NCBI RefSeq assembly: GCF_947623445.1
Contig: NC_135240.1
Span: forward strand, 1,364,001-1,428,000
Origin: Clavelina lepadiformis
Lineage: Eukaryota; Chordata; Ascidiacea; Aplousobranchia; Clavelinidae
Length of the DNA stretch: 64,000 nt
Direction of reading: 5' to 3'
Notes under the pieces: generated by a model
What the model was told of the DNA's origin: nothing
Seen by the model: only the letters and a program-made list of their open reading frames with translations
Databases searched by the model: none
Translations under genes and position numbers: made by a program
In this document: positions 1 to 22,330 of the stretch, piece after piece
Numbering within the stretch: the stretch's first letter is position 1
Layout: each line of letters begins with the position of its first letter

Positions 1-356
1 CATATTCTTGTTTGACCAGTCTACAACGAAGTTAGCACAATATTCTTTGCTCCCCACAGTCAATGGTGAAATATAAATAGTATGATAAGATAAAAAAAAT
101 TTTTTTGTACACTGAAATCTCAAATCAGTGCAAATCCAAACTTTGCAATCGTGCGCACTTTTAGGCTGCCAGGCGTTCTTGTTGATGCTTTAGCTGGCCC
201 GTGTCTGCGAGAAAAAAAATAGCAATAAATCCTGTAAAAATGCATAAAAACGGTGTTCACAAATGATTAAATGCTTTGAAAATTCAGCTAAGTTCATATA
301 AATGTGTTCAACATACCTGAAGTGTACTACTGAATATAATGATAACCGCACTTCAG

Positions 357-635
357 TGTACTCTTGCCCAATTCTGTAGACTGCCTTTTTAAGTTGATTG
401 AAGGTTTTACATAGCGATGTTTAAGTTGACATTCACATGTCAGTAAGCGCAGGAAAAATGCCAAGACTGATAAATGGAGTGCACCTAGCGCTTGACAGCG
501 GCTTTTTTAAAAAAGTGTTACTCATGCGTTTCGATGAAAAAATGCTTTTGCTTTTTTATACAAAAAAATGTGATCAATTTTTCACTCCCACTCTTTTTAA
601 CAATTTAAAGGTATTTTCATTTTGCCGCATTCTGG
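357..635 (+). repeat. Left ~280-bp terminal inverted repeat of a 17.4-kb unit
   Basis: This stretch recurs in reverse complement at 17471-17750. By eye the two copies differ at only about ten positions in ~280 bp, and the outermost ~110 bp are identical. Similarity starts abruptly at TGTACTCTTGCCC on the outer side and fades inside near 635. The two copies face each other, as terminal inverted repeats do, with a KDZ transposase gene between them. I found no clear 8-bp target duplication outside the copies (CACTTCAG on the left, TTTTACAG on the right). Confidence 0.7.
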
Positions 636-671
636 AACACGATGGTACATTTGCAAGATTGATTGGTTTTA

Positions 672-752
672 CAGTTTCCTATAATCCGGAGACCCCGCTA
701 ACCCGACATTTTATGACGAAACAATGTGGTCCGGATTAACGAGGTCCTACTG
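672..752. mobile_element. 81-bp pogo/Tigger-type MITE with TA duplication
   Basis: The two ends are inverted relatives, CAGT...ATAATCCGGA and CAGTAGGACCTCGTTAATCC (reverse strand), flanked by TA at 670-671 and 753-754. CAGTAGGACCTCGTTAATCCGG-like ends are typical of pogo/Tigger family elements of the Tc1/mariner superfamily. It has no coding capacity and sits just inside the left inverted repeat. Confidence 0.6.
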
Positions 753-1102
753 TACTTACGTGTAGTAAGCTTATGATTCTCTTTTAAATACTTTGTCCTA
801 AAACCCGACCGACACTTTTTAAATGCTCAACCCAACTTCCGTTTCTTGTTTCAACGCTAAGTTATGTTGTTAATTAATAATGTTAGATTAGTACAAGGCA
901 GGTTGATAAAAAATTATAATTTTTTATAGTAATTAAGGTGGTACTGTTTTGACCTACTGAAAATGCAGTATCTGTAATTTGATTTCATATTTGTATTTTG
1001 GTTTCAGATAAATGTTGCTATCATCCATAGGCTCTGTAATAGAATAAGTAATGCGTAAACTTAGCAAGAAATACTGTAGATGTAGAACGAAATGTTGTTG
1101 GC

Positions 1103-2344
1103 GAGGGGTGTTCAAATGATTTCTGCCAGGATCCACCACAGCCAAACCTGACAACATGATGCTTCACTAAATACGAATAGTAAACATATTGGACATGCTT
1201 AAATTTTTATGGTGTTTTATTTATGTAAATTAACCCTACAACATATTAATAACTTTGTAAAAATCAAAAGTGAAGTGTGCTACAGTTGCAAGATTTGTTC
1301 AGTGAGAAAAATGAAGAGTTGGTTTAGATCTCACAATAGCATCGAATGGGGGCTTTCTGTCACTTACTGATATCCTCAAAAGCTCATGAAGATGAGCATT
1401 TGTGAGCCTCGTTCTATGCTTGCAAAGGTACGTAGAAGCGAAGCAAGTAAGGACCCTTCTGGTCCTGCCAGCCTGGTTATAACTGGATACCTTTCCAAGG
1501 TTTCAAGTGATAACCAAAACACATTTGGATCTGCGATACAAATCTCATCTCCTATAAGATTACACAGTTCTACCTGCATTTTAGACACCAGCAATGCATA
1601 TTCAGTGGAAAGTTGGGTTTTCCAAGTGTCATCAACATCAGCAGACAGTGGATGAGAGATTAGCTCTATAACTGAACTGATTTCATAAAATTCCTGTTAC
1701 AAAACTCAGTGTCCAAATTTGACAAAACATGACAAATCATTATCACAGCTAACTTCTTGTAGAGTCACTTTCAAGCATGGAAAGTGGAGCATGTCTTTGG
1801 TGATAGTTGAAACGAATAGCAACAGCTGTTGCTTGAAAGATTTCTGGCCACAGTTGAATGATAGTATGCCCCTTGCCCTGGAGCTTCAAGTTCAGAGTAT
1901 TTAGATGGGTAAAACGGTCAGCGAGAAAAGCAAATTTACATAGATTGGTACCTTCAAGCAGAGTACTAGTTTGACCCTTGTCATTCAAAAACATGACCAA
2001 CTCTTTACGAATTTCCCACAGCCTTTTCAAAGCATTGCCCTTACTTTGCCATCTCTTGTTATTATGCGTGAGTACGTCACAAAATTCAGCGTTATGCTGA
2101 TCTAGAAAGTTCCTTAGTTGCCGGTGCTTAAAAATCTTTTTTTTGTTCAATATTTATTTACACTAAAAGTATGAGAATACATATAATTTTATGCTATTAA
2201 AAATTCCAAAAATTAGTTTCAACGCTGACAATTGGTATCCACATGAAAATACTGTAAAAAGTTTATTTTTTTCAAGACTACATTGGAAGATCCACACAAA
2301 AAGTTGAAAAGATCCAGATCGAGATCCGCCATTTGAACCCCCCG
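1103..2344 (-). mobile_element. hAT DNA transposon, decayed copy with both ends
   Basis: The ends are GAGGGGTGTTCAAAT on the left and, reverse complemented, CGGGGGGTTCAAAT on the right. The flanking octamers are TTGTTGGC (1095-1102) and TTGTAGGC (2345-2352), a 7/8-matching 8-bp target duplication as expected of hAT. The interior holds a decayed transposase read on the minus strand. At 1242 bp the copy is internally deleted compared with typical full hAT elements. Confidence 0.75.
1299..2150 (-). pseudogene. hAT transposase remnant (GTF2IRD2/ZBED-like C-terminal half)
   Basis: The minus-strand translation at 1749-2150 carries the family pattern around FLDQHNAEFCDVL, then LNLKLQGKGHTIIQLWP, matching the C-terminal half of hAT transposases of the GTF2IRD2/ZBED5/SCAND3 type. 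Nearer 1300-1400 another frame reads LTNAHLHELLRIS followed by FDAIVRSKPTLHFSH and a stop, which is the usual hAT dimerisation-domain tail. The reading frame changes between these parts, and the N-terminal BED finger and first catalytic region are not visible, so this is not a working enzyme. It lies inside the 8-bp duplicated element at 1103-2344. Confidence 0.75.
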
Positions 2345-2352
2345 TTGTAGGC

Positions 2353-2465
2353 TATGTTGACACAGTAGCTGAGTGATTAGAGCGCCAACCTTGCAATGGT
2401 GTGAATCACTGCTTTATTCGTAGTGACTCTACTGTTGAAATGTTCCTGAGCAAGGCATAAAAAAA
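2353..2465 (+). repeat. tRNA-derived SINE fragment
   Basis: A tRNA-like head with an A-box-like TAGCTGAGTGATTAGAGC followed by GCCAACCTTGCAATGG is followed by CTCTACTGTTGAAATG and CCTGAGCAAGGC and a short A-run. This order (tRNA head, GAGCAAGGC core, A-rich tail) is that of SINEs seen in deuterostomes. The B box is poorly kept. It abuts the right target duplication of the hAT element at 2344. Confidence 0.6.
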
Positions 2466-2689
2466 AATGTTTTCTCATTTGCAGTGATTCTGGTGAATAG
2501 TTTCGAATTTGGGCAGAACAAATAGCAAGTCAAAGTATAACAGTGTACGCAGAATAGTAAGGTAGCCGAGCCAGTAGAAATCATTGTCTAGTGTAAGTGA
2601 TATGAAGACTTCTGGGTCCTAGGATTGATAGTCCGGTACCATATTAAAATTGACCTTGCAGTGTGTTGCTTTTTGTGATGTGTGTTTCA

Positions 2690-2815
2690 ATTACATTTAA
2701 TGATTTTTTGATGATACATTTTGTCATACATTTCATGATACATTTTGTGATGTGTGCTTCAATACAATTGATATGTTTTTTGTGATGTGTTTTTTGTGAT
2801 GTGTTTTTTAATTTG
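2690..2815. repeat. Low-complexity TTTTGTGATGTGT repeat
   Basis: Diverged short repeats of TTTTGTGATGTGT and GATACATTTTGT are clustered here. It looks like slipped simple sequence with no coding content. Confidence 0.5.
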
Positions 2816-3436
2816 CTTTTGAAATTAGTATGATATCAGGTAATAAAGAAACACTAGTTTTAAAAGGGATATTTTCCTTACATGGGCCTATCACAGAAAG
2901 TTGCCTAAGGGGCCCGTAGGTGTCTTGCTGAGCCTACGTATTGTACTATAATGGTGACAAGAATGTCAGTCTCTTGTCTGCATGGCAGTATATCAGTGTT
3001 TTCATTCCATCTTAACATTATTACCGTCTTTGCAGAAGTTTACCCATAATTTACGCATACAGGGGATTGAGCTGACAAGCAGTAAGATTGTTTAAAATTC
3101 TCCATGCCTTAAACTACAAATGGTAGAATTTGGTAGTATTAGAAACTCCCATCATTACTGTAGCTTTGGAGGTATTACATTCGGAATACTTACACAGTGA
3201 ATAGTTAGTGTGTTTGCCAGATGAAACCATGTTGTTTGCTACAAATTGTAACACTAACAATGTATACTATATAAGTGTATACACTCTGAAGAAAATAAAT
3301 TAGTCATGAGACCCTGCTGTACAGTATTTAAAGTGTTAACTTCTAAAAAAACTGAATTTAATAATAATGTGAATGTTTTAGGTGTATGCTGTATTTAATT
3401 TAATTTTTAGGTTTTACTTAGTTTTTCAAAAGTGAA

Positions 3437-5415
3437 ATGCCTAAAAGACAGAGGTAAGCATGATGCTCATACAAATGTATTCTTATATGTTTTAGCGTAA
3501 CTTGTATACATGTAAGCAAGAATTACATTTGCAGAGTAGTTTGAATTTGTAGTCCAGTCATCCAACGTTTTCTTTGGTTAAGGTTGTATGATATTGTAAT
3601 AGACTCGATCTGCTGGCTACTCAGGTAGAGCTACTGACTGAGTATTGGCAACTAGGAATGCGAGATCTTTCAGATCCCAGGGTTTCTGAAGCCGCTGTTT
3701 CAGCACATTTAACGGAGAATCAAGTGAAGGTACAAAAAGGTTAATTTTAGTAAAACCTAGAAAGGTTTAATAAATCATCGTTCAATTTGGAAGAACATTT
3801 TTTTGTATTTTAGGTCTGGATAAAAGATACGTGGACAAAAAATTCCACCAGCGCTAGTACCGTAGGAAAACTTACAAATATCTCTTGCAAAAGAAGAGTG
3901 TCAGGGTATAACCTGTATTCTTCTTCTCTTAAAAAGGACGGAATTGGTACATTGTTTTCTTTAGATTGTGTTAAAAATTGCAACAGAAATAGAAAAATTT
4001 GCATAATTGTGTAGTCTATAACTAATGAACAGCATATATTTCGTAATTGTGTTGCTTATCAATTATGATTTAACATTTGCATGTGCTATTTCTTCTAAGT
4101 AGCGTCACAGCTACATGGTATTGAAAAAAAACAACTGCTGGCAATTTTTCTAGTTTTCATCCCCCCTGAATAGTTTGGCTTGCCATTTTTCTCCAGAATA
4201 GTGTTTCTTGTTTCAATTGTTTAATTACTCTGTCTGGTTTTCTTTGCAAAAGTTTATTTGCAGTTTAATTTAAGGTTTTAGACAATGGGCAACAAAATGG
4301 AAACAACTGAGTGATGAGAAAAAGAAGTTTTGGGAAAAAGAAGGTCAGAAAGCAACTTTGGCAGAAAGGCTTGCTCCAATCACCGAAAAACGAATCAAGC
4401 ATCTAAAAAACAGGCAGTTAAAAATTATAGATAATGCTGTGAGTAAACAGGATGATACCATTACTTTGATCGATGATTTTCTGTTAAAGCAGGTTTAACC
4501 AACTATATTAGCAACTTAACATTGCTCTACTGCAATTGCATTATTACATTTGACATTTTGATTTAAAATTGAAGCTTAAAAATGAAAGGTCACTGTTCAG
4601 GAACTGAGATATTTGCGGTACTAAAAATTGATCGTATCTACAGAAAAAATTTGAAAAAATGAAAGACTTTCAGAAATTACTTGCTTAACTATGGCAGTTA
4701 TTGACAGTTTCAGTCTGTTTTTAGTCTCATTTATAGTATATATTAAAACCATATTTCAACTGTGAAGTGAACTTATTGCATTTTTGGAGCATTTTTATCA
4801 GACAGATTTTACATAGCTGCGATTGCTGTGTTGTCATTAATAATTGTGTTCAATTTTTTTTGGGATATTTTAGACAAACCATCCACTTCTAGAAGTTTGA
4901 AAATCCTAAAAAAAGAAGTCAGAGCAATAATTAATGAGAAATATTGTAAGTTTTTTCTTTTGTATTGTTTTAGTTTTACAGTTATTATGAAATAATTGTA
5001 GTGTTATTTATTAAATTCTTTAGCAGAAGCTGTGAAAAAAAACAACCAGCGGCTGCCATATTCCAAACTTAATGAACTAGGCATAAGCATGCTTGGCCTG
5101 CCATCAGGAGTTTTTTTAAAAAACCCAGCAGGGTATGGTGCGTGCATATGCAAAGAGATTATCAGTTGTAGGAACCAGCTTAAAGTAGTTATCAACAGGT
5201 GTGGTTTCGGCTTTGTTGTATGTTATATTTGTCTGTTTTTATTTGTTTGTCATAGATGCAATATATCTTAAGCTGATGCAGTGGTAGTGTATCTTGTTTT
5301 TATGTATCTTGGGATACTGGTATTATATTCGGTATTATACTATTCTTTTATAATTGGTAGGTCTGCACCAGAGAGTGAAAAAGATATGCTTGAAGTGGTA
5401 GTGTTAGAAGGTTAA
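3437..5415 (+). CDS. Homeodomain-like / HMG-like / GTF2I-repeat protein
   Basis: Inferred exons: 3437-3453, 3603-3729, 3814-3946, 4282-4492, 4874-4945, 5024-5198, 5361-5415. Exon 1 reads MPKRQ. Exon 2 ends in LTENQVK, continued as VWIKDTW in exon 3, which resembles a homeodomain recognition helix. RRVSGYNLYSSSLKK followed by QWATKWKQLSDEKKKFW resembles an HMG box. Exons 5-6 hold one GTF2I-type repeat: INEKY, then RLPYSKL, then MLGLPSGVFLKNPAGYG. All introns are GT-AG. Phases agree for exons 1-3 and for the last three; the junctions 3946/4282 and 4492/4874 do not match, so a small exon is probably missed in each gap (one candidate is near 4599-4640). The GTF2I repeat is a DNA-binding fold of the TFII-I family, so a nuclear DNA-binding role is inferred. 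It lies inside the 17.4-kb inverted-repeat unit. Confidence 0.65.
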
Positions 5416-5448
5416 ACTGTAACAATTCATATAATGATGTTTCATTGC

Positions 5449-5895
5449 CAGAGGTGGGTGGTCGGTACTTTGAAAGAACAAAGCGATTATTATTAACTCG
5501 GCTATTACAGTGCAATACTGAGGGATGTAAGCAACTACATGTGATATACGTACAAACCCAGAAACCAGTGTTAGCAAACCGTACATGTTCAAAGTCGTGT
5601 TGCAAAAGAGTAGTTTGGTACTCTGCATCGGTACTTTTTATATAGAGGATCCTGTTGCAAATGGAATACTTGCCTCTATTTATACTCCGCCACAGATTAC
5701 TCCAGTTCAGAACATAAGTGACGTCACTCAGAACAAAGAACAATTGAGAGCGCTAAAATGGGTATTAAGGTTTGATCAACATGATTTCAAAACCTTGAAA
5801 TAATTACTTGAAGAGTATCGGAACCGAATAAACTATTTTTAAATAAACTGAAAATGTATTGCGATACCATAGATCCGCCGCACTGCCCACCTCTG
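5449..5895. mobile_element. Probable non-autonomous hAT element
   Basis: The ends CAGAGGTGGG (left) and CCCACCTCTG (right) are perfect 10-bp inverted repeats of the common hAT type. The flanking octamers TTCATTGC and GTGTTTGC match at only 5 of 8 positions, so the duplication is weak. No transposase coding was recognised inside. It starts 34 bp after the stop codon of the upstream GTF2I-repeat gene. Confidence 0.5.
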
Positions 5896-8143
5896 GTGTT
5901 TGCTTTGTTAGATTATATCGGGCGCTTCGCATTTCTCATTTTTTGTATTTTTTTATTCATTTTTTGCTTTACTGTCTTTTACTGTATTATTCGCTGTCTA
6001 CCAGTTGCATGGAATACAGTAGCGAACTTTGCTGATAAATTAATGATGTCCGCTTTGCCTCATGTTGTTATGCAATATTTTGCTGTTAATGTGCGTTTAG
6101 TGTTTTTTGTTGCTACACGTCTTCAGTTCTTTTGTAATAGTGCCTTTGCCTAAATTTGTTGCCAGTTTTGCAGCTGTATTTTCTGTAGGTCGTTTGAAAA
6201 ATTCGTTATCGCAGCTTTCTTTCTTGCCCTTTCAACGTTCGCTGTCTAGTTCCAAATAAACAAAGTACTGTGGTGTTTTTGGTGTGTGTTGCTGACCAAT
6301 TGGTATCTTCTTAACAAATATTTTTGTAAAACTGGTGACTCGAAACAACTGTAATACTGTAACTGTATACTTTGCAGAAGAAATAGAGCAGGGGTGGGAA
6401 AGTTTTCAAATACCACATTGCAGTTATCTGGGAATCAGTTATTCTGTGGCTGTTTAACAAAATTATAACCTCTCCAGTAACTATTCCATCATTAGCAATT
6501 ACGTATTTATCATGACGTCACGCGCTGTGCGTGGTATTGCACACGTTGGAATTTCCACCAAGTTATGTTTGCTGTATAGGCAACGACATCGTCATAAAGA
6601 GGTCATTCTACGACACATCATATAGTAACACGTGAATGTAAGCTTGTAGCAGCTAAACCATGTTTGCCCCGATCAATGCAGGTAATTTTTCGTGTTTTTA
6701 AGCGTCACGTTGCATATGACAATTTGAAACTTAACTTAACGTTTCTCCCTAAACTTGACAGCTTTGTTTTGTCTCTTAACCTAGAAAGCTTCGACGCTCG
6801 TCGTTTGATCACTTTAGGCCATCGATTTTAGTTGACGTTTGGACATTTTGTTTGCGCGAACAAGGAGTAGACAGCGAACTCCAGATTTAAGTTTGGTTCT
6901 CGTAACAGCTTTTCCCTCAAGAGACGTTGGAGTAATCCGGCATGTTATTCTGTCTATTATGATGGCGCTGCACAGTGTGCTAAACTCGCAAGAACGTGCT
7001 AGGAGCATTAGGTCTGTAGCGTACTCGCCCACAGATTCGTGGGGTTACTTGTGGAAAATGTGTGCCTTTCCACTGTGATGTTGCGTTTCAGGCTACAATA
7101 CTATTCCAGCTTACCTAGCAAGGTTATCATGATGCCTTTATGTTCGTCATTCAAACCCCAGGAATTGTAAATATTTCTGACGTCCTGACCAATGTAACAA
7201 ATAGCTAACCTTTTCCGCCTCGATTTTTCTGTTTGCCGGACGCGCAGTGATGGACGTCACATAAACACTTGACCGTAATCCCTGTTCTTAGCAGCCCATA
7301 TTTTTGGTTAAGACTTGAAAATTAAAAGTTTTGCTTTGTTTGTAAATGTGAATCGGAAAAGTTTCCTTGATTCTGTCATAGTTGGTGCAACACATAACAG
7401 CTAACTGTTCATGGTCTCGTGACAGATGGGACTACACGAAATAGCAGTTGTGTATGGTTGTGTTGAAAATTTATTTCACAACGCAGTATATGCTCAAAAA
7501 CGTACCGTCACCAATTCTAGGGGACCTTGTCATTAGTACGTCATTGTCATTGTCATTCGAATCCCGAATCTGTTCCTATCAGCACCAAATAATAAAATTC
7601 CATCAAAAAGTCGCCAAATCTTGCTTGTAACGTGACGTAATTACTAAAAATTAATGATTAAATGGCGATTTGAAAAGTAAATTTCTTAAGAAAATGATTT
7701 TTGGTAAGAAATGTTGACTCTGGTTGAGCCAGGAAAATAGATCATTGCAAGTCGATAGATTTTTAAGTAGCATAGTAATTGGGTTAGCCATCATTAGGAT
7801 TCGTGTTCGCCCGAATCTCCTACACAGGAGATATTCGGCGAATCTATGGCGGGTTTGGGTTCGTGTTGGCCCATCCCTACCAATTATTAATCGGAAAGAA
7901 GCCAATTGCAAAATTTACACACTATGCAGATGTTATTCATGCACACCGTAAGCAATACTTACTATACCGATTCTTAATACCGACTATGTATGTTTCCTTT
8001 ATCGAAACATGAGAATAAATATAGTTTGCAAATAATTATAATAATTGGCCCCAGAATTGTAAACGGGCCTGATCGAACCCGATAATTTATTTGAAGAAAT
8101 AATAATAAACTTATAGCGATAATTTATAAATTTATTCGCTTAC
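5896..8143. other. Spacer with no firm gene
   Basis: No ORF here resembles a known family. A hAT-like single end CAGGGGTGGGAAAG is seen at 6389 with no partner found. A possible first exon reads ATGTTTGCCCCGATCAATGCAG at 6659-6680 followed by gtaattt, below a TGACGTCA-containing stretch; I could not find a convincing second exon. The rest is T-rich and unremarkable. Confidence 0.4.
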
Positions 8144-8151
8144 ATATAGGG

Positions 8152-8465
8152 CAGCGTGGTCCAACTTCTTTTCATCGCGGGCCAAAATCAAACAAAAATT
8201 TTATCTTGCGGGCCAATGTTTTTAAATCAGAACTGAAGAAATGTGAAATTAGAACTGAAGAACAATGTGACATTGATATTAGAACTGAAAAAAGTTCTCT
8301 TTTTTAATTAAAACTGAAATTAGAATAGTTCAAAATTTTTAGCTGTTAATGCTGATCAATGTGACATCTGCGGTCGAGGTTCTTCCTCGACAATAGCGAC
8401 TATCAAAGCTGACTATCAGTTCGCGGGCCAAAGTTAGCCCGCGGGCCTGCAGTTGGACCACGCTG
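8152..8465. mobile_element. 314-bp hAT MITE with perfect 8-bp duplication
   Basis: The perfect terminal inverted repeats CAGCGTGGTCCAACT and AGTTGGACCACGCTG are flanked on both sides by ATATAGGG (8144-8151 and 8466-8473). Subterminal GCGGGCCAAA motifs occur near both ends. There is no coding sequence. The perfect duplication suggests a fairly recent insertion. Confidence 0.85.
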
Positions 8466-9294
8466 ATATAGGGTATTGTCATAGAGTTTGTTATTGTCTA
8501 CATTGTTTGCATGACCTGTGCTAACTGAAAGCTTTTGTTTATTAAATACTGTGATGAAATTTCTTCCAATATGGATCCCCTTCAGTATATGGTACCCATC
8601 AAGGCAAATCTTATGCGAGAGTAGGTTAAGGAGGCGTCTAACACAAAAATGCTATAAAATTCCTGTTTGTTTTGTTATACAGCGTATTTACTAAAAAACT
8701 GATTACTCGAAAAGTCCTCCATGGGGCTCTCTGAAATTTTGCATTCATTCATTCATTCCATAGAATGCCATCAAAAAACTATGATTCAAACTTTTTTGAC
8801 ATAGCTAAGCTTAAAATTGACACTGCAATTTTTTGGCTAAAACTCCGATTTTTATCGCAATTTTTAGTTTAATTATGCAAGCGACATAGGAAATCCAAAC
8901 ACGCCAACTGCTAGGGTAATTCCGAGGCTATCAATCAATCAATCATTTTATTTTTCGTCAAAAGCGGGGTGGGGACGAAAAATCAAGCCAGTTGTTACTA
9001 ACACGCATCAATGAACAGGAAAGCGACAAAGCCGAAAAGGCTTAAAACGTGCCCAAGAGAAATATATTCTGGTAACAACTAGGGCACGGCCGGCCACTAA
9101 ACCTATAATTAGTTAAATCCATAAAACATAAGTTGAAAAAGCGAAAAATTAAGCAGACGAGCAGGTGGTGTGTTCAAGCAACTGATGAATGAAAATTGCT
9201 TCAGTGCTGTACATCAGTGGATGGGAAAAGAAACCCCATCCAGGGCAAGAGCCTGGTTTCAGGTGGCCGTAGCACTGAAGAAGGGCGTTGTTGA
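8466..9294. other. Spacer and probable 3' untranslated end of the KDZ gene
   Basis: No gene is seen in 8466-8925. A short TCAA microsatellite lies at 8929-8945. On the minus strand AATAAA occurs at 8947-8952, about 340 bp below the KDZ stop codon, and could serve as its poly(A) signal. Confidence 0.4.
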
Positions 9295-12200
9295 TTAGCC
9301 CGAGTTAGTACAGCAAGAATGCACACCAACTGGGTTCAGTTCAACTGGGATTTTACAAACAGTGCCATGTAGAATGTCAACCTGTCGTTGATAATAAAAT
9401 AACGTGCCCAGCATATCTTGCTTGACAAGCTCAATTTCCTCTTTACATCGTTGAAGCAAATTGTAGCAATCCGTCCTTTGCTTGTCCAGTGAGGTTGGAC
9501 AAGAATTGGATTTTCCAAAATCTTCTAAAGTCCGTGTCCTAGGCTGGTGTAATACTGGATAGTCTTACATTTCATTGTATTGTACAATCAGTTTGCGGAG
9601 ATTTCGATTAATTTTTTGGATGTTTGTCATCAACCGGTTAACGATTGCTTGTCCGACTATAAAGTATAAACAAACAGTAAAAAAGGCGTTGTTTAACACA
9701 CATTGAAAAAATTTATTTGAACAATTAAAATGCAACAGCAAAGGCTTACTTACAATTTCAAACTATGATCAAAAACAGATAACAATAATCATCCACCTGG
9801 ATATTTTTTGACCAAGCTACTCAAAAACGTTTTTTCCACATTGAAGTTTAAAATTTTTTGGGTTATTTCCTGCCGCTTGTTTTCAGCGGCAACAGTAATA
9901 GTTTGAATAAAGATTTCATCCGAAGCATCCCAACGCGATATGCCAAGCTTTCTCTCCACAATAGTTAGCTCCTTATCAAGTCTGCACAAATAATAGCAAG
10001 AGACATATATTTGACGACGTTTCAATATTCATAACCCACAGTAGCAAATCAATAAAGCAAACGTACTTCGCAATTGCACTTTGGTGCTCTGTTAGGTCGT
10101 TTTCGCTGTCAGTGATGTTGTTTACAAGATCTCTAAAAGGTTGATATGTTTTTAAATTAACACCTTTTGGGACGAACTTGGTAGCGCATAGATACTTACA
10201 TGCGTTTGTAGTAATTTTTTAGATCGAGAGATTTTCATAACAAATTCATTTACTTTAAAGGTAAACTTTTTAAATCAACCTGTAAGTGTGATCTCAGTTT
10301 GCAAGCAATGTCATAACAAATCTTGAGATTTTTATTGGAAGACAACAGCTGATTTAGAATCCATACTGCATAACCCAACCTAACATCATAATAAAATCAG
10401 AGAAATCTTATTTTTTGAACCATATGCCTTCTTAACGGTGCATCAGATAATGTACACCAGCAAAACATGTATCAAACTAAGTACATTTTAAATTATCATA
10501 TATAATTATTGCAACTTTAACCACCTTTCTCCATGTTTCATATCCAAGAACATTTTAGGAAACTCATGTCGGCAACAAGCACCAAACACCCCTTTTACAT
10601 CCGATTTCGTACTTTTTTTCTTGGAACGAATCAAACTCCCAGCTTGAAAGTTACTACAATCCTTTGAATAGCATTTTAGGAACTAAAACTATCAAATACA
10701 CTTTTGTAAATATTCCATGGAATTCCATTCCATTCAATATGGGCAAATTGTTATCACCTGATATATAATACCAAACCAAGGCTTAATCTTAGCAATAATG
10801 AACCGTTTAAGACTCAATTTTGTGCTGTAAATACATACAAACAATTTTGTCTCTTGTTCACTGTAATCATTCATAAATTTGTCAACTTCAACTTGGTTGC
10901 AAAAAAATCGTTCCTGGTGCCGAGGGAAGGCACTCTGTATGCCGGCAGTTTTGCGCCTCACCAAGCCAAAGTTTCCATCGAAACAGTATAAGTTGTTGTT
11001 TGCAACACTCTGCACAATGCAACAAACATACATTACGCACAAAAAATGTGTTTTTTCAATTATTAATAGCAGGAACTTAAGCTGATAAATATCAGAGTCA
11101 AACAAACCACTTCACATGCTGGACAAACTGCCCCTGAATCAATTCCTGATATACAGTAACCCGCATTTAAGTCCTGCATATGCTGCAATTGATAAACATG
11201 ATGTCTGTATGCTTCAAACACTTCTTGCAACAGTATCCTTGAAAGTTTTTTCACCTTCAAAAACAGTGAAAACTATTAGAACTTAAATACCAAATGATTA
11301 CAAAATAAACCTACAAGTACAAATTTATTTATAACAAGTCCTTATTGCCAAAATATGCTGTTTAATTTGCACTTGAACCCATTACCTTTAGTCAGGTAAG
11401 TGCCTTCTTTGAACAAATATTCAAAAAAATCATTTAACTTTTGCTTTTTGACCTGGTGTTCGATGGTATCGATATTCCAACGCATTACAAAACCCCTCTG
11501 TCGAAACATGTTTTTCCAAACACAACACTCGAAGTAGTTCTAAAAGTTCTATGGAAACTGCAACTTGAGGAGATGTAGGAGAACAAGGCCATAAATTAGA
11601 TCGAAGCAAGGTTTCTCCTTCAGATTCACAACCGCAAAATTCAACTAAAACATCATGCTGAATGCCTAGAATTTTCAGAAAAAAATCAAAAGTATTGATG
11701 TCAATTACTGGACTACATTACAACATTTCAAAAGTACAAGGTAGTGGTTTATATATTTGTCATTTTTGATTACGAATAAACGTTTAGGATAGAGCTTTTA
11801 TATTACAGGAACAGAAACAATTGCTTCTTGGGCTTACTCACATTAAAACGTCTTATAACGTATATTAAAAAGCCTTATAGCTTAACAAACATTATTTTCT
11901 GCATATGTCTTTACAATAGAATGAGCATAACACACATAAAAAGAAAAATTTAAAACAATGAAATAAACGAATTCAGAAATTGTTTTATTTGTTTCAAATC
12001 GAACTAATAACTGAAAACTTTCCTGAACACCCTATCGCATTTAATGTAAAGTTTTGGCTAAGAAACACTTGGTGCCAATGGCGCAAAACATCAAAATGAA
12101 GCTGAGGCCTCTATGACAAAGGGGAACCTAACATATTTAAAAAAATTTCAGTAACTAGTTTTATAAAAAAAAATCTCCATTATGAAGCCAAAACACACCT

Positions 12201-12674
12201 TGGTTGTTGGCAACTGTCAAATGCTTGGTATACTGGCTGTTACACCGATGTTTATCAGAGCGCTTCATAGTACGTGGTTCAAGTGGCATCTTACAAAACA
12301 TTTTTCCCTATATATCATGTAGAAATGTAATTATTTAACAAACTTAATTGTACCATAGTGGGTCTGGTTCATACTGTACATATAAAATATTATTAACTTT
12401 GTACATTGTAAAGTACATAAACTATATGCTTAAACGTTTATGAAGTAGAAATTTCAATTCAACACAACGACTCACAAAATACATATTATACCTTCCAAAT
12501 GTCTGGTGAATGGAACCAAACTGCATCATGACAAGTGTGCCAACAATCCAAACAAAAGTACTGGTCAGGTCCACAATCAGAACATCTTATCTTATCATTT
12601 CATTTCATTCTATTTCACTTCTCTGTGGCAATGGCAACAGGTAGACGAAATACGATTGTACGATTGTCGCTTAA

Positions 12675-15368
12675 CACTAGAACGGCCGAGGTGTCGAAAT
12701 CGACACTTTTTGGATTTTGATGTCCTTTTATTTTACCAAATGACGTTGCAACGGTATAAAATTTTCAGTAGCTTCCTAACTTTCTTGAAAGAGTATGGAT
12801 AAGGAACATTTTTGGAAATTTGACTTTTGAATATTTTTTTACAACCTGTTATACCTTCAACGGCCGAGGTGTCGAAATCGACACCAAGATGATTTTAGAG
12901 GTAAAATAGACTAAAACATATTTTTACTTCGCACGATTGCACTTGCAACTATTATATACGTAAGATTACCCTGGTTTTAATATTTTCAATTGATTGTTTA
13001 TTAGAGTTTATGACGTCATAGACTTACTTTTTTCATGTACATTTGAAAAATACAACCTTGCTTTGCTTTGCAGCGAAGACTAACTGTGAACTGCACATGA
13101 CAGTTTTTGTGCAACGTACGGATTGTGTGTTACAGCAGTAAGACTAAGACCTTCAAGAGGTAAGATTTACCAGTAAGAGCAGCACTAAGACCAGTAAGAT
13201 TGAGGATATAAACTGTATAGTAGGCAACAAAATGCAGACTACAGGCAGAAAACTACCTTACGATAACAATGAATATTTTCATATGCAGATTTACAAGTCA
13301 ATTTTAGATAAAGATGTCATCACACAAATGTAGGTTCACAGCGGCCGAAGCCATAGCAATCCTTCATGAAGATTCTGACATTGATGAGACTGATGATCTA
13401 GAAGATATGCCAGAGGAAGTTCTTCAAGTACGTGAGAGTGACACTTCAAGTGACGAAGATTTGTATGATGCTGATGATGCTGGTAGTTCTTCAGACCATC
13501 ACAGTGATTGTGAAAGTTCATCTTCGGTGCAATATACAGCAAGAAATGGAGAGACGTGGACTCCTTTATTGTGTGCAAGAACTGTCCGTTCCAATCCTGC
13601 AAACTTAGTGCGGGTGAGACCAGGTGTCAATCCTAGTGTTCGTTACAAAGCCTCTAGTAGCCCTTATGATTGCTGGAAATTGTTTGTGGACAACTCTATT
13701 TTGATACCCATAAAAACACATACAACAAGAGAAGCTACGAAAAATGATCCCAACTTCCATTTGCCAATGGAAAAGCTGGAAGCCTTCATTTCCTTACAGT
13801 ACGCAAGAGGAATTTACAGCAAAAGTCATTCTGTTGACTTTTTATGGAGTGAAAAGTACGGTCCTCCTATCTTCAGGGAAACTATGTCAAGATCTGACTT
13901 TGTAAAAGTAAAAAGATATATTAGATTTGATAACAAAGATTGCCGAAGTCAGAGATTGTTGTCCGATAAATTTATACACATTCGTGAGACTATGGAAGCA
14001 TTGGTCTCTAATTGCATAAGAAACTACAAGCCGGATTGGAGTTTAACAGTGGATGAGCAGTTGTTTCCGATGAAGAACAGATGTCCTTTCATTGTTTTCA
14101 TGCCAAACAAACCGGATAAATTTGGGATGAAGTTTTGGGTAATAGCTGAGGTGAGCTCCAAATATGTTTGTAATATCTTGCCATACCTCGGCGCTCTGGA
14201 AAAAGATCAGAGAAATGGCAGACCTCTTGCCGAAGATGTTGTCATGAGATTGACCAGCAACTTGGATAGAAATGGCGGATACAACATCACAACAGATAAC
14301 TTTTTTACTAGTTTGAATCTTGCTGGTTTGCTAAGCCAAAGAAATATGACAATTGTGGGAACGGTTCGATCTAACAGCAAAGGACTTCCAAAAGAGATAA
14401 CCAGAGGGGAGGAAGAAAAGTTTTCTAGCAAGTTCTTCCACAATTCACTGAGAAACAGTATGCTTGTGAATTACCAGTGCAAACAAAAGAAAAAAATGAC
14501 CTTTTATCGACAATGCACAACAGCCCAAGCACCGATGCAACAGAAAAAAAGAAACCTACAGTTATTCAATTTTACAATCAAAACAAGGTAGGAGTGGACG
14601 TTTTCGACCAAATGGCGAGAAAATATACAACCCATGCAGGAAGTAGACGATGGCCTTTGGCTGTTTGGACAAACTTACTTGACATAGCAGCACTAAACTC
14701 CTGGATACTGTACAGAAAATGTTCCGGTAGCAACATCAGCCGACGAAGCTTCATACTCCAGCTTATTGAGGGGTTGAGGGATGCTTACATGGTGAAGCGG
14801 AAGCAAGTAGTCCAGAGAGAAATGAAACCAGCGCAGAGAAGACCATCGGGAAAACGAAGAAAATGTGCGGGACAAGGTTGCAAAAATAATACAGTAACAG
14901 TTTGCAGTCACTGCAGCAAGCCAACTTGCGGAGTGTGTGGTAACGGGGACTGGAAGCTTACAGAATGCAAAAACTGCACGACGTAAATTGGTCAACATGG
15001 GTCGTGCTGTAAACTCATCATCTGTAGACTTATCCTATTGTGTGTAGGAATCATATTAGTTTTCTTTCCACAATAGTTGACATTTTGTTAAGATACCTAC
15101 CATTAGAGTAGTGTTTGTTTCTTTCAAATCTTAAATGTTATTTTTTTTCGTTTCTTACAAATCTGTGCAACGTCATAAAATATCGACTTGCTGTAAATAC
15201 GTTACTTTTTGTTTTAACTGAACAAATAAAATATATACTAAACTCATAACGTAAGTATTTCTCTTTGAATTGTTAGCAAAATTTGATCAAAAAGTACATT
15301 TATAGGATGGTGTCGTTTTCGACACCACCGGCTGTTAGAGGTAAACTTTTTTTCCGGCCGTTCTAGTG
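12675..15368 (+). mobile_element. Complete piggyBac element inserted in a KDZ exon
   Basis: TTAA at 12671-12674 and again at 15369-15372 flanks the element, the target duplication specific to piggyBac. The terminal inverted repeat is CACTAGAACGGCCG at both ends. Subterminal palindromic copies GGTGTCGAAATCGACACC (near 12867) and GGTGTCGTTTTCGACACC (near 15308) lie inside. Length is 2694 bp, usual for an autonomous copy. The disrupted exon belongs to the KDZ gene: its coding sequence reads up to AATTAA on one side and resumes on the other. Confidence 0.92.
13314..14986 (+). pseudogene. piggyBac transposase, one frameshift
   Basis: A cut-and-paste transposase of the DDE_Tnp_1_7 (piggyBac) family. 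The first frame (13314-14591) gives an acidic N-terminus and the catalytic core: Asp247 in LTVDEQLFPMKNR and Asp328 in ITTDNFFTSLN. The second frame (14477-14986) supplies the third Asp in GVDVFDQM, the RRWPLAVW segment and a C-terminal cysteine-rich zinc-binding domain beginning CAGQGCKNN. The two frames meet at a run of seven A at about 14489-14495, so one slipped base separates them from a ~555-aa protein, the family's normal length. All three catalytic aspartates are kept. The break may be a genuine mutation or a sequencing slip; otherwise the copy looks young. Confidence 0.9.
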
Positions 15369-17081
15369 TTAATTACAAGCAATTTTTTTTCCAACTCCCT
15401 CCAATTCTTAGATAGTTTTTGTCTTTTCTCTGAATAGCACTGCTTTCCTAATGAAATAAATAAAAATACATTTACAAAAGTAACTAAATACAGTTAACTT
15501 CATATTAAGCAATTAAGTATAAACTCTACATGTCAGGTTTTTCTTTGTTGAAAATTCTAGAAATGAATCCAATAGCGTGCATTTGTTAACAACGATTACA
15601 GTTAGTTGCATTTTTAGCAAAAATTTACAAACAATATCACCTACCAATGGCCGAAGAATCATTATATCCACTGTAAGAGGCCGAACTGTCATTTAATTCA
15701 GAAGTATTTAAGGGTAATAAAGGGCTATCATTGGAGGCAGATAGAGCTGGAGTAAAGGTTTTGCAAAACAAAGAAACACTTCTTTTTCGTCTTCCTTTAA
15801 TCTTAACACTGTATTTTGCCTTAAGTCGACGAATAATATTCTGTGGACCATAGAACAATTATGTCATTATCAGGAACTAAATAACATGTTTTTCATAGAG
15901 CAGATCGATTTCACACAATTAAACAAAAGTTACTTCCATAGTGAACCTTTCATTTTAAAGCGATTGTAAAATTTCCCATCTCCATAGCCCATAAACAATT
16001 TTAACAATCCTGAACTTGTAAACAAATTAAAAAACCAAATGTAAAATGTGTGTGTAGATTGGAACTTGCATAAAAAACAAGCTCGCGGTACCTAATCGAG
16101 GAAAGTTAAGTCATGCAAAGACTTTCTTCATTCTGAGGATAAAGATTGTGATAATATATCATACCAAATAACTTTGCTATTCTACTTTCACTCTCAATCT
16201 CAATTAGCGAAAATCCAAACAAAATTTTTGTTTGGATTTGCCAAAGTAGTACTTTTATCAACTGCTTTAAATGAGTGTATACTATTATGTGAATAATTTA
16301 TTATAACAAAACAATATAATAATGATCCGAATCAAAGAACCATGTTTGGCTGCGGTAGGTTAACATAAAGGTACTCTGCTTGACAGTAAACCAAAATAAA
16401 ACAATATTATTCAAAACTGTTTTATCCTTGTGCTTGAAAAATGATAAATACAGTTCATACAATGGTTTGTCTAAATTACCATAAACTGCCAAAGTGTGCT
16501 GGGGAAAAATGAGCCACAACATAAATGTAAGGGTATGGATAAAAAGATATATCTTGTTATGACACATTTTAAAAAGCCAGAAAAAGTTTTTTTGCATTAT
16601 TCAAATGCCCAACTTACCGATTTCGGAGCCATGACAATTTTGTGTACCAATATTGGGTAACTTTACAACGTTAAAATCAACACATAACATGTGTGTAGAT
16701 ATAAAGTACATATAACTATAAGTCACAATCAACTACTATCCTGCAGGTCAATTGAAATTGTTAGTAGTAAGTACTGGCAACTTGTAAGTGCAAAGGTTGT
16801 TCATCAAACAAAGCCAATAGGTAAAAACAGCATAATTTATGATGCAGACCTCTAACAAATATTTGTACGATTAAAATATTGCTGTTACTTCTATAACTTA
16901 AATGATAAATGCTTTGAAAGTGAATAATAGCCTTAGATTTAATGAAAGAATGTGGGCATCAATAATAATTGTAAAAGGTTCTACTCTAATTATCTGTGAA
17001 TCATTTGTGGCAGATGTGACAAAAAACAAAATTCTTCAATATGGGCTTCCATGAAATCTCACAACATGTATTAGGCTACAG

Positions 17082-17410
17082 CAGGGGTCGGGAACCTTTT
17101 TAACTAAGGGAGCCATGAAAGCTACATATTTGTAATTGTATTTCCATCAGAACCATGTAATATTTTTTAACACTTAATGCAACTAACGTGTGCATGTTTA
17201 AGCAAAACCAACAATTTTAGGCGACAATGAATGTCTGAAATTACTCTTTAATATCATGCTTCTTACTGTTAATGCGTTATGAAAAATTACAGAAAAAGTT
17301 TTGATCGTAACAGTCGTGCTGAGAAATGCCAGCTCAGATTTATTTGCGAGCCAGATGTCGTCATCAAAAGAGCCACATCTGGCTCGCGAGCCATAGGTTC
17401 CCGACCTCTG
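17082..17410. mobile_element. 329-bp hAT MITE with perfect 8-bp duplication
   Basis: The ends CAGGGGTCGGGAACC and GGTTCCCGACCTCTG are imperfect inverted repeats, flanked by GGCTACAG at 17074-17081 and 17411-17418. The subterminal sequence ATGGCTCGCGAGCCAG is palindromic. No coding is present. It sits between the KDZ gene and the right inverted repeat. Confidence 0.88.
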
Positions 17411-17470
17411 GGCTACAGTTAAACACACGTACCACAATGCAATTTTGCAATTTACCAATGTCATTGATTT

Positions 17471-17750
17471 CCAAAATGCGGCAAAATAAAAATACCTTTG
17501 AATTGTTAAAAAGAGTGGGAGTGAAAAAATGATCACGCTCTTTTTGTATAAAAAAGCAAAAGCATTTTTCCATCGAAACACATGAGTAACACTTTTTTAA
17601 AAAAGCCGCTGTCAAGCGCTAGGTGCACTCCATTTAACAGTCTTGGCATTTTTCCTGCGCTTACTGACATGTGAATGTCAACTTAAACATCGCTATGTAA
17701 AACCTTCAATCAACTTAAAAAGGCAGTCTACAGAATTGGGCAAGAGTACA
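17471..17750 (-). repeat. Right ~280-bp terminal inverted repeat of a 17.4-kb unit
   Basis: Reverse complement of 357-635 with about ten differences. The outer edge at 17750 is as sharp as its partner's. It lies ~840 bp upstream of the KDZ start codon, with the hAT MITE 17082-17410 between. Confidence 0.7.
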
Positions 17751-17880
17751 TTTTACAGTGTTAAAATCTAGCCAGCTTGCTACTGGCGTGTCGAGATTTA
17801 TGTTCAACTAGCCTACATACCGAGTGCTGTACCGTTACTAGCAGATATTTCGAAAATGATCTTATACAACCTTATACAGC

Positions 17881-18570
17881 CATGGATGAGCAAGATAAAG
17901 GCAAAAACAAAGAAAACAATATAGGTTATAGCCCATAATGGGAAGAGTGGCACCTGTACGCAACAGACATCAACGTACAAGCCGAAATTTGGTATCTTCA
18001 TGCTATCATGCATAATGAACCAAAAAGGATTGAGATTTCAGTGCACGGAAAAGTTTGCATTTTTACTTTATCGTACAACAATGTACCGAACCTTACAACA
18101 ATGAAAGTTAGCCTGGCCATTAAACCCAAGCAGTTTAAGAGAAAACAAAATACTAAGCACCAAAAAAGAAAAGAACACCAAGAAGAAATATATACACCAA
18201 TGTTAATACTTACACTAGTTACATATATTAGTTAATATGTACACAGCTATAGAAACGAGTCCATTTATTAGAATAAGAAGTGGTTGTGACAAAAAATAAT
18301 TAGAGTTTTAATACTAGCGTGGCCTAAAACATACATCCTAATTTTTGGCCGTAAGTCTCCCTGTTTAAAATGCATGTTTTCCAATAAAGATGACAAAATA
18401 CCAAAGAAAACAAAATAGGCTATAACCCACAGTGAAAAGTGTGTATATACGCTATATACGCAAGAGACATCAACGCGCTCATGTGCAAACCAAACTTTGT
18501 TATCTTCATACTATCATTCATAATAAACAAACAAAGAATTGAGATTTCAGTGAACGCCAAAGTTTGCGTA
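17881..18570. repeat. Pair of ~190-bp direct repeats
   Basis: 17881-18072 and 18371-18570 share a diverged sequence in the same orientation, including ACAGACATCAACG/GAGACATCAACG, TATCTTCATGCTATCAT and ATTGAGATTTCAGTG. Family unknown. 18073-18370 and 18571-19190 hold nothing recognisable. Confidence 0.55.
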
Positions 18571-19196
18571 AGTTGCATGCACGACGTACTTTCCGGATGG
18601 GGCTATAGCTCATACCTCAAAGTCTCAAGAATAACCTATAGTCAATGCTGAAACATGAAAAACCCGCTAAAGTTTGAGAAAACCTTAAGTAAAAAAGGCC
18701 AAACACTGTACAGTCAACCAAAATCAAAAGGTCGGTTGTCGACTACCCATACTATATATACAGATAACAGGCAGACAGGTTCTCAAATATGTTGACCAGC
18801 AGAGCAGGTTCAGCATTCAGTGGCCGCAGTAGTGGTAGTACGGTAACTAAGATTCTATTATGGTGATAACTGATAACCGTGACAAAGTATATGCTTATAC
18901 GATAGCCTAGTCAGTAAAAGGCGGATGTCCGGATCTGCCGGAGGTGAGATTAGATGTAGCCAAAAACGCTTTTTAATAGAGCATGCTTGTACCCAGATTT
19001 TGCGAGTAAGTGTGCTTGAGAGTATAGAAAACTGAAAGAATGAAACGTATAGGCTCGGCAAGCTATTATTTGTGCTTGTTTCCTTTGGTTACACACTTAC
19101 TGGTTCGCTGTTCGTCCTTTGTTACCCGGATCCGGAAGTTGGACATTTAATAGCCGGTTAATTCTATTATACGCGCAATTACGGCAATTTTATCTA

Positions 19197-19420
19197 AACC
19201 TTGCAATCTGTAAGGTACTGCTATTATACAGTATAAGCCTTAAGCTAAAGGCCTACGCGTATATAGGTTATAGTTATACGGCATAAGCTTTAAGCTAAAC
19301 GCATCTTAACCTTGCAATCTGTAAGGTACTGCTATTATACAGTATAAGCCTTAAGCTAAAGGCCTACGCGTAGGCTATAGTTATATGGCATAAGCTTTAA
19401 GCTAAACGCCTACGCCTAGG
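19197..19420. repeat. 111-bp tandem repeat, two copies
   Basis: The unit beginning AACCTTGCAATCTGTAAGG starts at 19197 and again at 19308, with near-identical following sequence; within each unit TATAAGCCTTAAGCTAAAGG and GCATAAGCTTTAAGCTAAACG are themselves related sub-repeats. A third partial sub-repeat follows to about 19425. Confidence 0.7.
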
Positions 19421-19765
19421 CTATAGTTATACGGCACACACCGCTGCAAGCTGTACGGTACCGGAACGACCTTGCCTGCTTTCAGCAATGGGGTTTCCCA
19501 CGAATCATATTTCTGCCGAAGTAAAGTTTTCCCCATTCCAAATGCAAATCGTCTTACTCTAGAGTTAGAAGTGCATACTTCCTACCATTCCAATGGGAAA
19601 AAATTACCGTACTCTGGCCCATTTTAATGAGCGGATAGTAGACGAATGGGGTGTTATTTTGACCTAAAAAAAATTTTTTTTGACTTTATTTTAATCAAAT
19701 TTTGACTTTATTTTGACCTAACGAAATTGCTTATTTGTAGAGGCCACAGTTCTTCCTCCAGTTAC

Positions 19766-20504: not shown

Positions 20505-22330
20505 ACAGATGTTTCACCCTTTAGAAATAACACGTATCACTATGACATCACTTTTCTTTTCTATCACACAGTATGAGATAACTGATTCTTTCATTACTTG
20601 TATATCCACAAAAACCGATATTTCACTTTAGCAATCATAAGTTTCACCATTTCACTATTCTTGTATGCGTGGTGCGGTATTATACTTTTGAAACTGTGAT
20701 GTACCTTTTCCATTACATAAAAGATATTCAAGTTTATGATGTCACAAAAAATTCATACATTTGAAAAAGTTAGTTACATCATAGTTTCAAAAGCGTAATA
20801 CCGTGTATTGCACCACGCGTACAAGAAAAGTGAAATAGTGAAACTTGTTATTTCTAAAGGGTAAAACATCTTTTGTGAATATGTAATGAAAAAAGTTAGT
20901 TACGTCATAGTTTCAAAAAAGTATAATACTTTGTACAAGAAAAAAGTGAAATCCAAACCTGTAAAAGAGTAAATGATGTGAGACAAGTCCATAAACCATG
21001 ATACGTTTCATATTGACTTATGCCTGTTGTACACTTTCTCATTGGTTTTAACGTTTAAATTGTTAAACATAGAACACAAAGATTATAAAATGTATCATAC
21101 CAAGTAGTGTTTAGGAAAAATATGTTTATTTTATGTTTTTTTCTGGTTATGCCACTGGTTGTAATTCGTGTTTTAGTACTGTTTAAATCTTTTAAACCAT
21201 TCAGCGATATAAATATTTAAATAATTACGTCATATTTAGACATACTATCTCGATAAACAATACCGTTTAATCGCTATAAACGAAACATAGTTCATTACCA
21301 TATCTCAATAACTAATACACAACCAAGCCTATCCATATAAAATAATACATTTCAGTGCTTTTTCACATCTAATACACAAATCATCTAACACATATAAGGG
21401 AATAGAGGTTCTTTTAGAACATGAAACAGTAGTTAACATAATTATTTATCCAATATGTCTCTAAAATCTGACATATATTCTGGAAACAAATCACAGCTGG
21501 GGGCAAATGAATTGGTTGCAACGCACTCAAATGATCTCATAACACCACAATCGCGCAATCATTTACTCTTTTACAGGTATGGACTTGTTAGTGTAAATAT
21601 AATGTTCACATCCCTATAGACTCAGATGAATCCAATTGGTTCACATGGTATTATGCTTCTGAAACTATGACGTAACTGATTCTTTCATTACTTGTATATC
21701 CAATATCAATTAAACCAAAACATATTTCACTTAAGAAATAACAAGTTTCACTATTTTACGGATTACGATAACAGCTGTTTTTCAAATCGTGACGAATTTT
21801 TATATCCGGTTTATTTCAAAACAAGTTAGTCAAGAAATCAAATACATCCTGTAACTTTCCTATGCCAGCTTTTTCCTCAAAAACAGGTTGGATTTTTTAT
21901 ATCCAGCAGCAGTGAATGGATTCATTACAATGTACTCGTATGAACTCATAACAGATGTTTCACCTTTTGGAAATAACAAGTTTCACTATTTTACGGATTA
22001 CGATATAACAGCTGTTTTTTCAAAACTTGACGAATTTTTATATCCGGTTTATTTCAAAACAAGTGAATCAAGAAATCAATTTTTGTAGGCAGGTCTTGAC
22101 TTCACTTCACTTTTTCTTGTACGAATAAAGTATTATGCTTTTTGAAACTATGACGTAACTAACTTTTTTCATTACATGTTCACAAAAGATGTTTCACCCT
22201 TTAGAAATAACAAGTTTCACTATTTCACTTTTCTTGTACGCGCGGTGCAATACACGGTATTATGCTTTTGAATCTATGATGTAACTAACTTTTTCATTAC
22301 ATAAAAGATATTCAAGTTTCTGATGTCACA
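20505..22330. repeat. Cluster of inverted and direct MITE-like repeats
   Basis: One motif set (GATGTTTCACCCTTTAGAAA, CACTATTTCACTTTTCTTGT, GGTGCAATACACGGTATTA, GAAACTATGACGTAAC, ATTACATAAAAGATATTC) recurs in both orientations. 20505-20960 forms a large imperfect palindrome centred near 20750, and 21640-22330 carries further direct copies. The space between (20970-21630) is AT-rich with no gene seen. Confidence 0.6.

Follow-up and report, generated by a model that had tools for sequence, protein, structure and literature searches.

What kind of element is marked by two facing 280-bp repeats in the genome of the ascidian Clavelina lepadiformis, and does the second gene enclosed by these repeats belong to it? 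The stretch of DNA analyzed here, referred to as the window, comprises 64,000 nucleotides (NCBI RefSeq assembly GCF_947623445.1, contig NC_135240.1, positions 1,364,001 to 1,428,000 of the forward strand). The original prediction, made from the letters alone, read the repeats as the ends of a giant KDZ transposon with a GTF2I-repeat gene as its passenger. We consider it very likely that the window contains, in decayed form, a KDZ-type cut-and-paste DNA transposon of about 17.7 to 21.3 kb with two genes, the second of which encodes the GTF2I repeat. The elements have common CACCCC ends, 7-bp target duplications and two conserved genes that face each other, and they have inserted independently at many sites, in some cases very recently. 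The predicted combination of a giant KDZ element and a GTF2I-repeat gene is present in a chordate, in two families (A and B), but the 280-bp repeats are subterminal rather than terminal.

Self-comparison of the window copy recovered the facing pair that had been estimated at ~96% identity (357-637 and 17469-17750, 96.45% across 282 bp). When the left repeat was used to query the window's own assembly (209 Mb, 95 contigs, as in all genome searches below), 14 matches were obtained, 12 of them strong. Ten of the latter form five facing pairs with a KDZ match inside each, and the remaining two are single, one on contig C3 and one on C7; this is not a common dispersed family usually found singly. 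The outer edges of the repeats, described before as sharp, proved to be internal: homology between copies runs past them to outer inverted arms with termini at window positions -1636 and 19653, which rules out the 280-bp repeats as element termini. The whole window element covers C1:1362364-1383653 (21,290 bp) and starts 1,637 bp to the left of the window, so that its left arm, lying wholly outside, could not have been seen in the original prediction. The arms start with CACCCCATTCGTC and are ~1.4-1.56 kb long in the four A copies compared. Family A includes five two-ended copies with identical termini (Table 1), as well as partial copies on C7 and C3.

Perfect 7-bp duplications flank four of these five copies (CGCAGTG, ATTGCGT, ACTTTGT and AGAACTC), and the eighth base beside the duplication differs in three A copies, as it does in copy B1. 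An 8-bp target duplication is thereby ruled out, given that the duplications read are 7 bp. The missing 8-bp duplication noted earlier is real for the window copy, which has none even at its outer ends, whereas the element type duplicates 7 bp there. A genome search with the 62-base A end returned 185 candidates, 40 of which were scored and matched; among the short derivatives with A-type ends, one of them a near-palindrome of ~370 bp, 7-bp duplications were present at all three that were read.

Family B was found by retrieving one locus with both KDZ and GTF2I matches and searching the genome with pieces of that locus. Its reference element (C1:10557307-10577211; 19,905 bp) carries 138-bp inverted ends, and 21 copies with both ends placed (19,879-21,322 bp) have sharp common edges. 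Ten copies, the query included, are ~100% alike over the ~10.4 kb compared, which leaves aside the middle (about half of the length); the exceptions are a ~280-bp insert near the right end in three copies and one further copy that differs slightly in length. Family B looks recently active. Perfect 7-bp duplications were found at 15 of the 16 B copies read at both edges. A third family, C, is 71-96% identical to B over different parts and has at least four copies, the one read being flanked by GTTTAAG. Taken together, 20 of 22 elements (A, 4/5; B, 15/16; C, 1/1) and three of three short derivatives, i.e., 23 of 25 insertions, show perfect 7-bp duplications. The first 13 bases are identical between the A ends and the left B end, and the termini read CACCC...GGGTG, i.e., 5'-CA..TG-3'. 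It is extremely improbable that segmental duplication or misassembly, rather than transposition, gave rise to the copies: the ten near-identical B copies would fit such an origin, but the sharp common edges with different flanks, the perfect duplications at nearly every B copy and the fact that no two of the 20 duplications read in families A, B and C are the same argue against it.

Another way to read the two nested sets of repeats would be a composite, in which a KDZ element bounded by the 280-bp repeats is nested within another transposon, to which the outer arms belong and whose enzyme moves the whole. While the 280-bp repeats do resemble ends, and short elements with the outer ends alone do exist, we regard this as very unlikely. 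No target duplication was found at the 280-bp edges of the window copy, all five inner pairs are enclosed by outer ends, and an element with 280-bp ends and its own duplication but without outer arms does not occur among the 14 genome matches. Moreover, family B has the 13-base end and both genes, yet its self-comparison revealed no inner repeat pair over 18 kb, and a tblastx comparison of A and B found no transposase gene other than KDZ that is common to both.

Turning to the KDZ gene that had been predicted between the repeats, its KDZ and CxC domains are indeed encoded there, on the minus strand. A tblastx comparison identified the segments kept in both families, which were joined as they stood, without transcripts. 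The joined segments match the KDZ domain (PF18758, cut-off 26.6) with 140.5 bits in the C8 copy of family A (profile positions 4-212 of 217) and 134.6 bits in B (4-211 of 217), and the CxC cluster is above its cut-offs in A and B, respectively, with 44.3 and 43.3 bits for CxC2 and 33.2 and 32.1 bits for CxC1. The motifs DGNF/DANF, YDIAC and TDGE..ER, which may represent the catalytic DDE residues of the KDZ enzyme, are present in the joined segments of both families. Over 662 codons compared between A and B, the proportions of nonsynonymous (pN) and synonymous (pS) differences are 0.31 and 0.80; no A-versus-B ratio is given here or below, because synonymous change is saturated. Within family A, the ratio of nonsynonymous to synonymous substitution rates (dN/dS) between the C8 copy and the older C7 copy is 0.37 over 554 codons. 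In the genome, 31 KDZ matches resolve into 28 loci (6 A and 22 B), 23 of which also have a GTF2I match (4 A and 19 B).

The second gene faces the KDZ gene in A and in B. As predicted, it lies on the strand opposite to the KDZ gene, here the plus strand, and encodes a GTF2I repeat (PF02946, cut-off 27): the joined exons score 48.0 bits over positions 1-75 of 75 in the C8 copy of A and 40.1 bits over positions 1-70 in B. In a PDB search with the A repeat, all ten sequences at E <= 1 were TFII-I family repeats (best hit, 2dzq at 4.5e-7), and no relative of this repeat was found in IMG/VR. Six exons are conserved at the same place and in the same orientation in A and B, with 38% amino acid identity over 211 codons (pN 0.40, pS 0.81), and dN/dS between the C8 and C7 copies is 0.53 over 188 codons. 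Given this conservation, the gene is a resident rather than a chance passenger, and it is an old component common to the elements of both families. Among the other A copies and fragments the ratios lie between 0.3 and 2.2, based on 5-13 changes; this is too little for a verdict and consistent with decay after insertion.

The distribution of GTF2I repeats across the genome bears on the same point. The search was run exon by exon, so that a host repeat split by introns could escape detection. It gave 31 matches at E <= 0.05, five of which exceed the Pfam cut-off unspliced, and 30 lie inside elements or their fragments (23 in B, four in two-ended A copies and three in A fragments at C3:23641584, C3:23709309 and C6:5723881); there is one match per element, although a weak second repeat may have gone unnoticed, the gene model being incomplete. 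Two of the three fragments, those on C6 and at C3:23709309, had been candidates for repeats outside elements before they turned out to derive from A. The remaining match, at C3:14652749, was rejected as a host GTF2I gene: it is a frameshifted relic without nucleotide match to the A copies on C8 and C3 or to the B element. Within its reach, this exon-by-exon search detected no intact GTF2I repeat beyond the elements.

It might still be argued that a host gene was caught by chance and hitchhikes without any role in the life of the element. GTF2I repeats are best known in vertebrate host genes, 5 of the 28 KDZ loci have no GTF2I match, and the ratios among young A copies indicate little constraint. 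Against this stand the six exons kept in place and orientation in two families, the excess of pS over pN between them and the failure to find an intact repeat outside elements in this genome, and we therefore judge a mere hitchhiker improbable.

A separate observation concerns family B, where an open reading frame (ORF) of 314 amino acids with a CCHC-like cysteine pattern lies between both genes (element positions 9052-9993). Its sole Pfam match is zf-C2H2_10 (18.3 bits, under the cut-off), and no counterpart was seen in A by tblastx of A versus B.

Several observations weigh against the proposal of a two-gene transposon. Both gene models were built without transcripts: splice sites in the second gene were chosen by eye, and the KDZ segments come from tblastx. 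The homeodomain-like and HMG-like assignments of the original prediction do not hold at Pfam thresholds: in the joined A exons the former reaches 16.5 bits (Homeodomain, cut-off 22.9), and the latter 14.5 bits in A and 14.4 bits in B (HMG_box, cut-off 25.4), with two other families scoring equal to or above HMG_box in B; of two PDB searches with these HMG-like stretches, one yielded a weak, unrelated match and the other nothing. On the side of the KDZ gene, there is an in-frame stop within one segment of the C8 copy. As for the ends, the window copy has no target duplication at its true outer termini, one of the 16 B copies read likewise has none, and the right B end departs from the 13-base motif at two positions. 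To these may be added the five KDZ loci without a GTF2I match; in the C1b copy of family A, the match was removed by a deletion.

The window copy itself is dead or non-autonomous: conserved segments are absent from its KDZ gene, and a piggyBac transposon is nested in the element. KDZ segments 7, 8 and 12 of the 13 known from the C8 copy were not found in the window copy by tblastn; the stretch that holds segments 7 and 8 in the C8 and C2 copies is missing here and seemingly also in the C4 and C1b copies. The second gene has lost, directly behind the exon at 4274..4445, a 358-bp stretch that other copies retain and that includes the following exon. The piggyBac transposon corresponds to a gap in the other aligned copies, and the hAT-like fragment at 1376-2153 has no Pfam match in the window copy. 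Two further features were observed. The stretch 17082-17410 is a short insert, presumably hAT-like, that is bounded by CAGGGGTCGGGAACC / CCCGACCTCTG and shows, as read by eye, the 8-bp duplication GGCTACAG; it is missing from the C2, C8 and C7 copies and present in C4 and C1b. To the right of the element, an inverted repeat pair (20762-20950 and 22106-22296, 93.8%) is perhaps another small transposon.

Table 1. Features of the window (window positions) and further two-ended copies of family A (contig positions)
Feature	Position	Strand	Remarks
Family-A KDZ element, portion in window	1..19653	.	Copy-to-copy homology and common termini
Left inner (subterminal) inverted repeat	357..637	+	Left edge in the original prediction
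hAT-like transposase fragment, also in C8 copy	1376..2153	-	Dimer_Tnp_hAT 17.5 bits in C8 copy, under cut-off 21.4
Second gene, homeodomain-like exon	3625..3729	+	Positioned by tblastn
Second gene, exon with start of HMG-like stretch (ends approximate)	3814..3945	+	Conserved in family B
Second gene, exon with remainder of HMG-like stretch (end approximate)	4274..4445	+	HMG_box 14.5 bits
Second gene, exon with first part of GTF2I repeat	4873..4947	+	
Second gene, exon with rest of GTF2I repeat	5023..5199	+	PF02946 23.2 bits unspliced in window
KDZ transposase gene, multi-exon, broken in window copy	9358..12590	-	10/13 C8-copy segments found by tblastn
N-terminal portion of KDZ domain (profile positions 4-135 of 217)	10413..10991	-	PF18758 51.7 bits
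CxC2/CxC1-like cysteine cluster	11469..11660	-	37.7 and 29.7 bits, both above cut-off
Nested piggyBac transposon	12675..15368	+	TTAA at 12671-12674 and 15369-15372; PF13843 173.4 bits, ORF 13308-14591
Right inner (subterminal) inverted repeat	17469..17750	-	96.45% to left repeat, 282 bp
Right terminal arm, ends GACGAATGGGGTG	18094..19653	-	Partner arm -1636 to -80; 98.9% over 1561 bp, inverted
Family-A two-ended copy	C1:25500647-25518368		17,722 bp
Family-A two-ended copy	C8:13438621-13457923		19,303 bp
Family-A two-ended copy	C2:6465101-6483923		18,823 bp
Family-A two-ended copy	C4:5892614-5921563		About 29 kb; right end outside stretch fetched

How might such an element move? The KDZ enzyme, as a DDE-type transposase, would cut at the CACCCC ends with a 7-bp stagger, and could also mobilize short derivatives reduced to the ends. 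The second protein may act as a DNA-binding helper, most likely on the long element ends, in transposition or in element expression. The window copy, unable to make a whole transposase, would be movable only by transposase from other copies. Alternatively, and as a tentative option that deserves attention, the element may be the same while its second protein counters silencing or activates element transcription, being dispensable for cutting and joining. TFII-I is a transcription factor in vertebrates, and in fungi an anti-silencing function has been proposed for the TET/JBP accessory genes that KDZ elements carry (PMC12730594). Nothing direct speaks against this role; the domains are compatible with either.

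The statement of the original prediction that fungal KDZ elements carry extra genes such as TET/JBP agrees with the same paper. There, Kyakuja is described as a fungal KDZ lineage with 7-bp duplications, 5'-CA..TG-3' termini and no terminal inverted repeats (TIRs), and Zisupton as having 8-bp duplications, both being able to carry TET/JBP (Kojima 2025, PMC12730594). Our elements resemble Kyakuja, so described, in the KDZ transposase, the 7-bp duplications, the CA..TG termini and the presence of an extra gene, but differ in having TIRs, from 138 bp (B) to ~1.56 kb (A), in the animal host and in carrying a GTF2I-repeat gene instead of TET/JBP. With Zisupton of fish, fungi and nematodes they have in common the KDZ domain and a multi-exon gene, according to PMC12730594 and PMC9297572, and the length of the duplication sets them apart. 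KDZ1-3 of Cryptococcus likewise feature a KDZ domain, TIRs and a CxC1 domain; according to PMC12810828, they measure 9.2-11 kb, with TIRs of 139-241 bp and 4-8-bp duplications, in contrast to the 17.7-21.3 kb and 7 bp found here. Placed by these features rather than by a tree, the elements are KDZ by domain and Kyakuja-like in duplication and termini, but with TIRs.

The second gene shares with the vertebrate TFII-I family (GTF2I, GTF2IRD1 and GTF2IRD2) the GTF2I repeat itself, with all 75 profile positions. Vertebrate TFII-I proteins have several repeats, whereas the exons modeled here contain one, beside the homeodomain-like and HMG-like stretches and inside a transposon. As PMC10641963 reports, hAT elements are often misnamed GTF2IRD2 owing to the hAT tail of GTF2IRD2; since that misnaming stems from the tail, it does not explain a match to the GTF2I repeat itself. 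Among the matches listed in a search of the open-access literature, no paper combined GTF2I with KDZ or Zisupton.

It is tempting to speculate that the GTF2I repeat was at root a KDZ component, and that the vertebrate TFII-I family (the Williams syndrome region) arose by domestication of the second gene of a KDZ transposon followed by repeat duplication. We consider this possible, if rather doubtful. The lack of a detectable intact repeat outside elements in this genome is a point in its favor. According to one survey, GTF2I was found, relative to amphioxus and Caenorhabditis elegans, only in tunicates (PMC8122590); a table row there, with the column order as we interpret it, lists a count of 1 for a single tunicate out of the six and of 15 for human. 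The opposite direction, in which the transposon picked up the repeat from a host, is equally compatible with these data.

In fungi, KDZ transposons were already known to bring along an extra gene, TET/JBP. The families described here add a chordate example, in which the second gene is another one and is conserved; the elements measure ~20 kb, and their movement is recent enough for ten copies to be near-identical in the parts compared. They also mean that the GTF2I repeat is not confined to vertebrate gene regulators but belongs to the regular equipment of a mobile element, so that the origin of the TFII-I repeat becomes testable, and they call for caution, as invertebrate genes annotated as GTF2I-like may belong to transposons.

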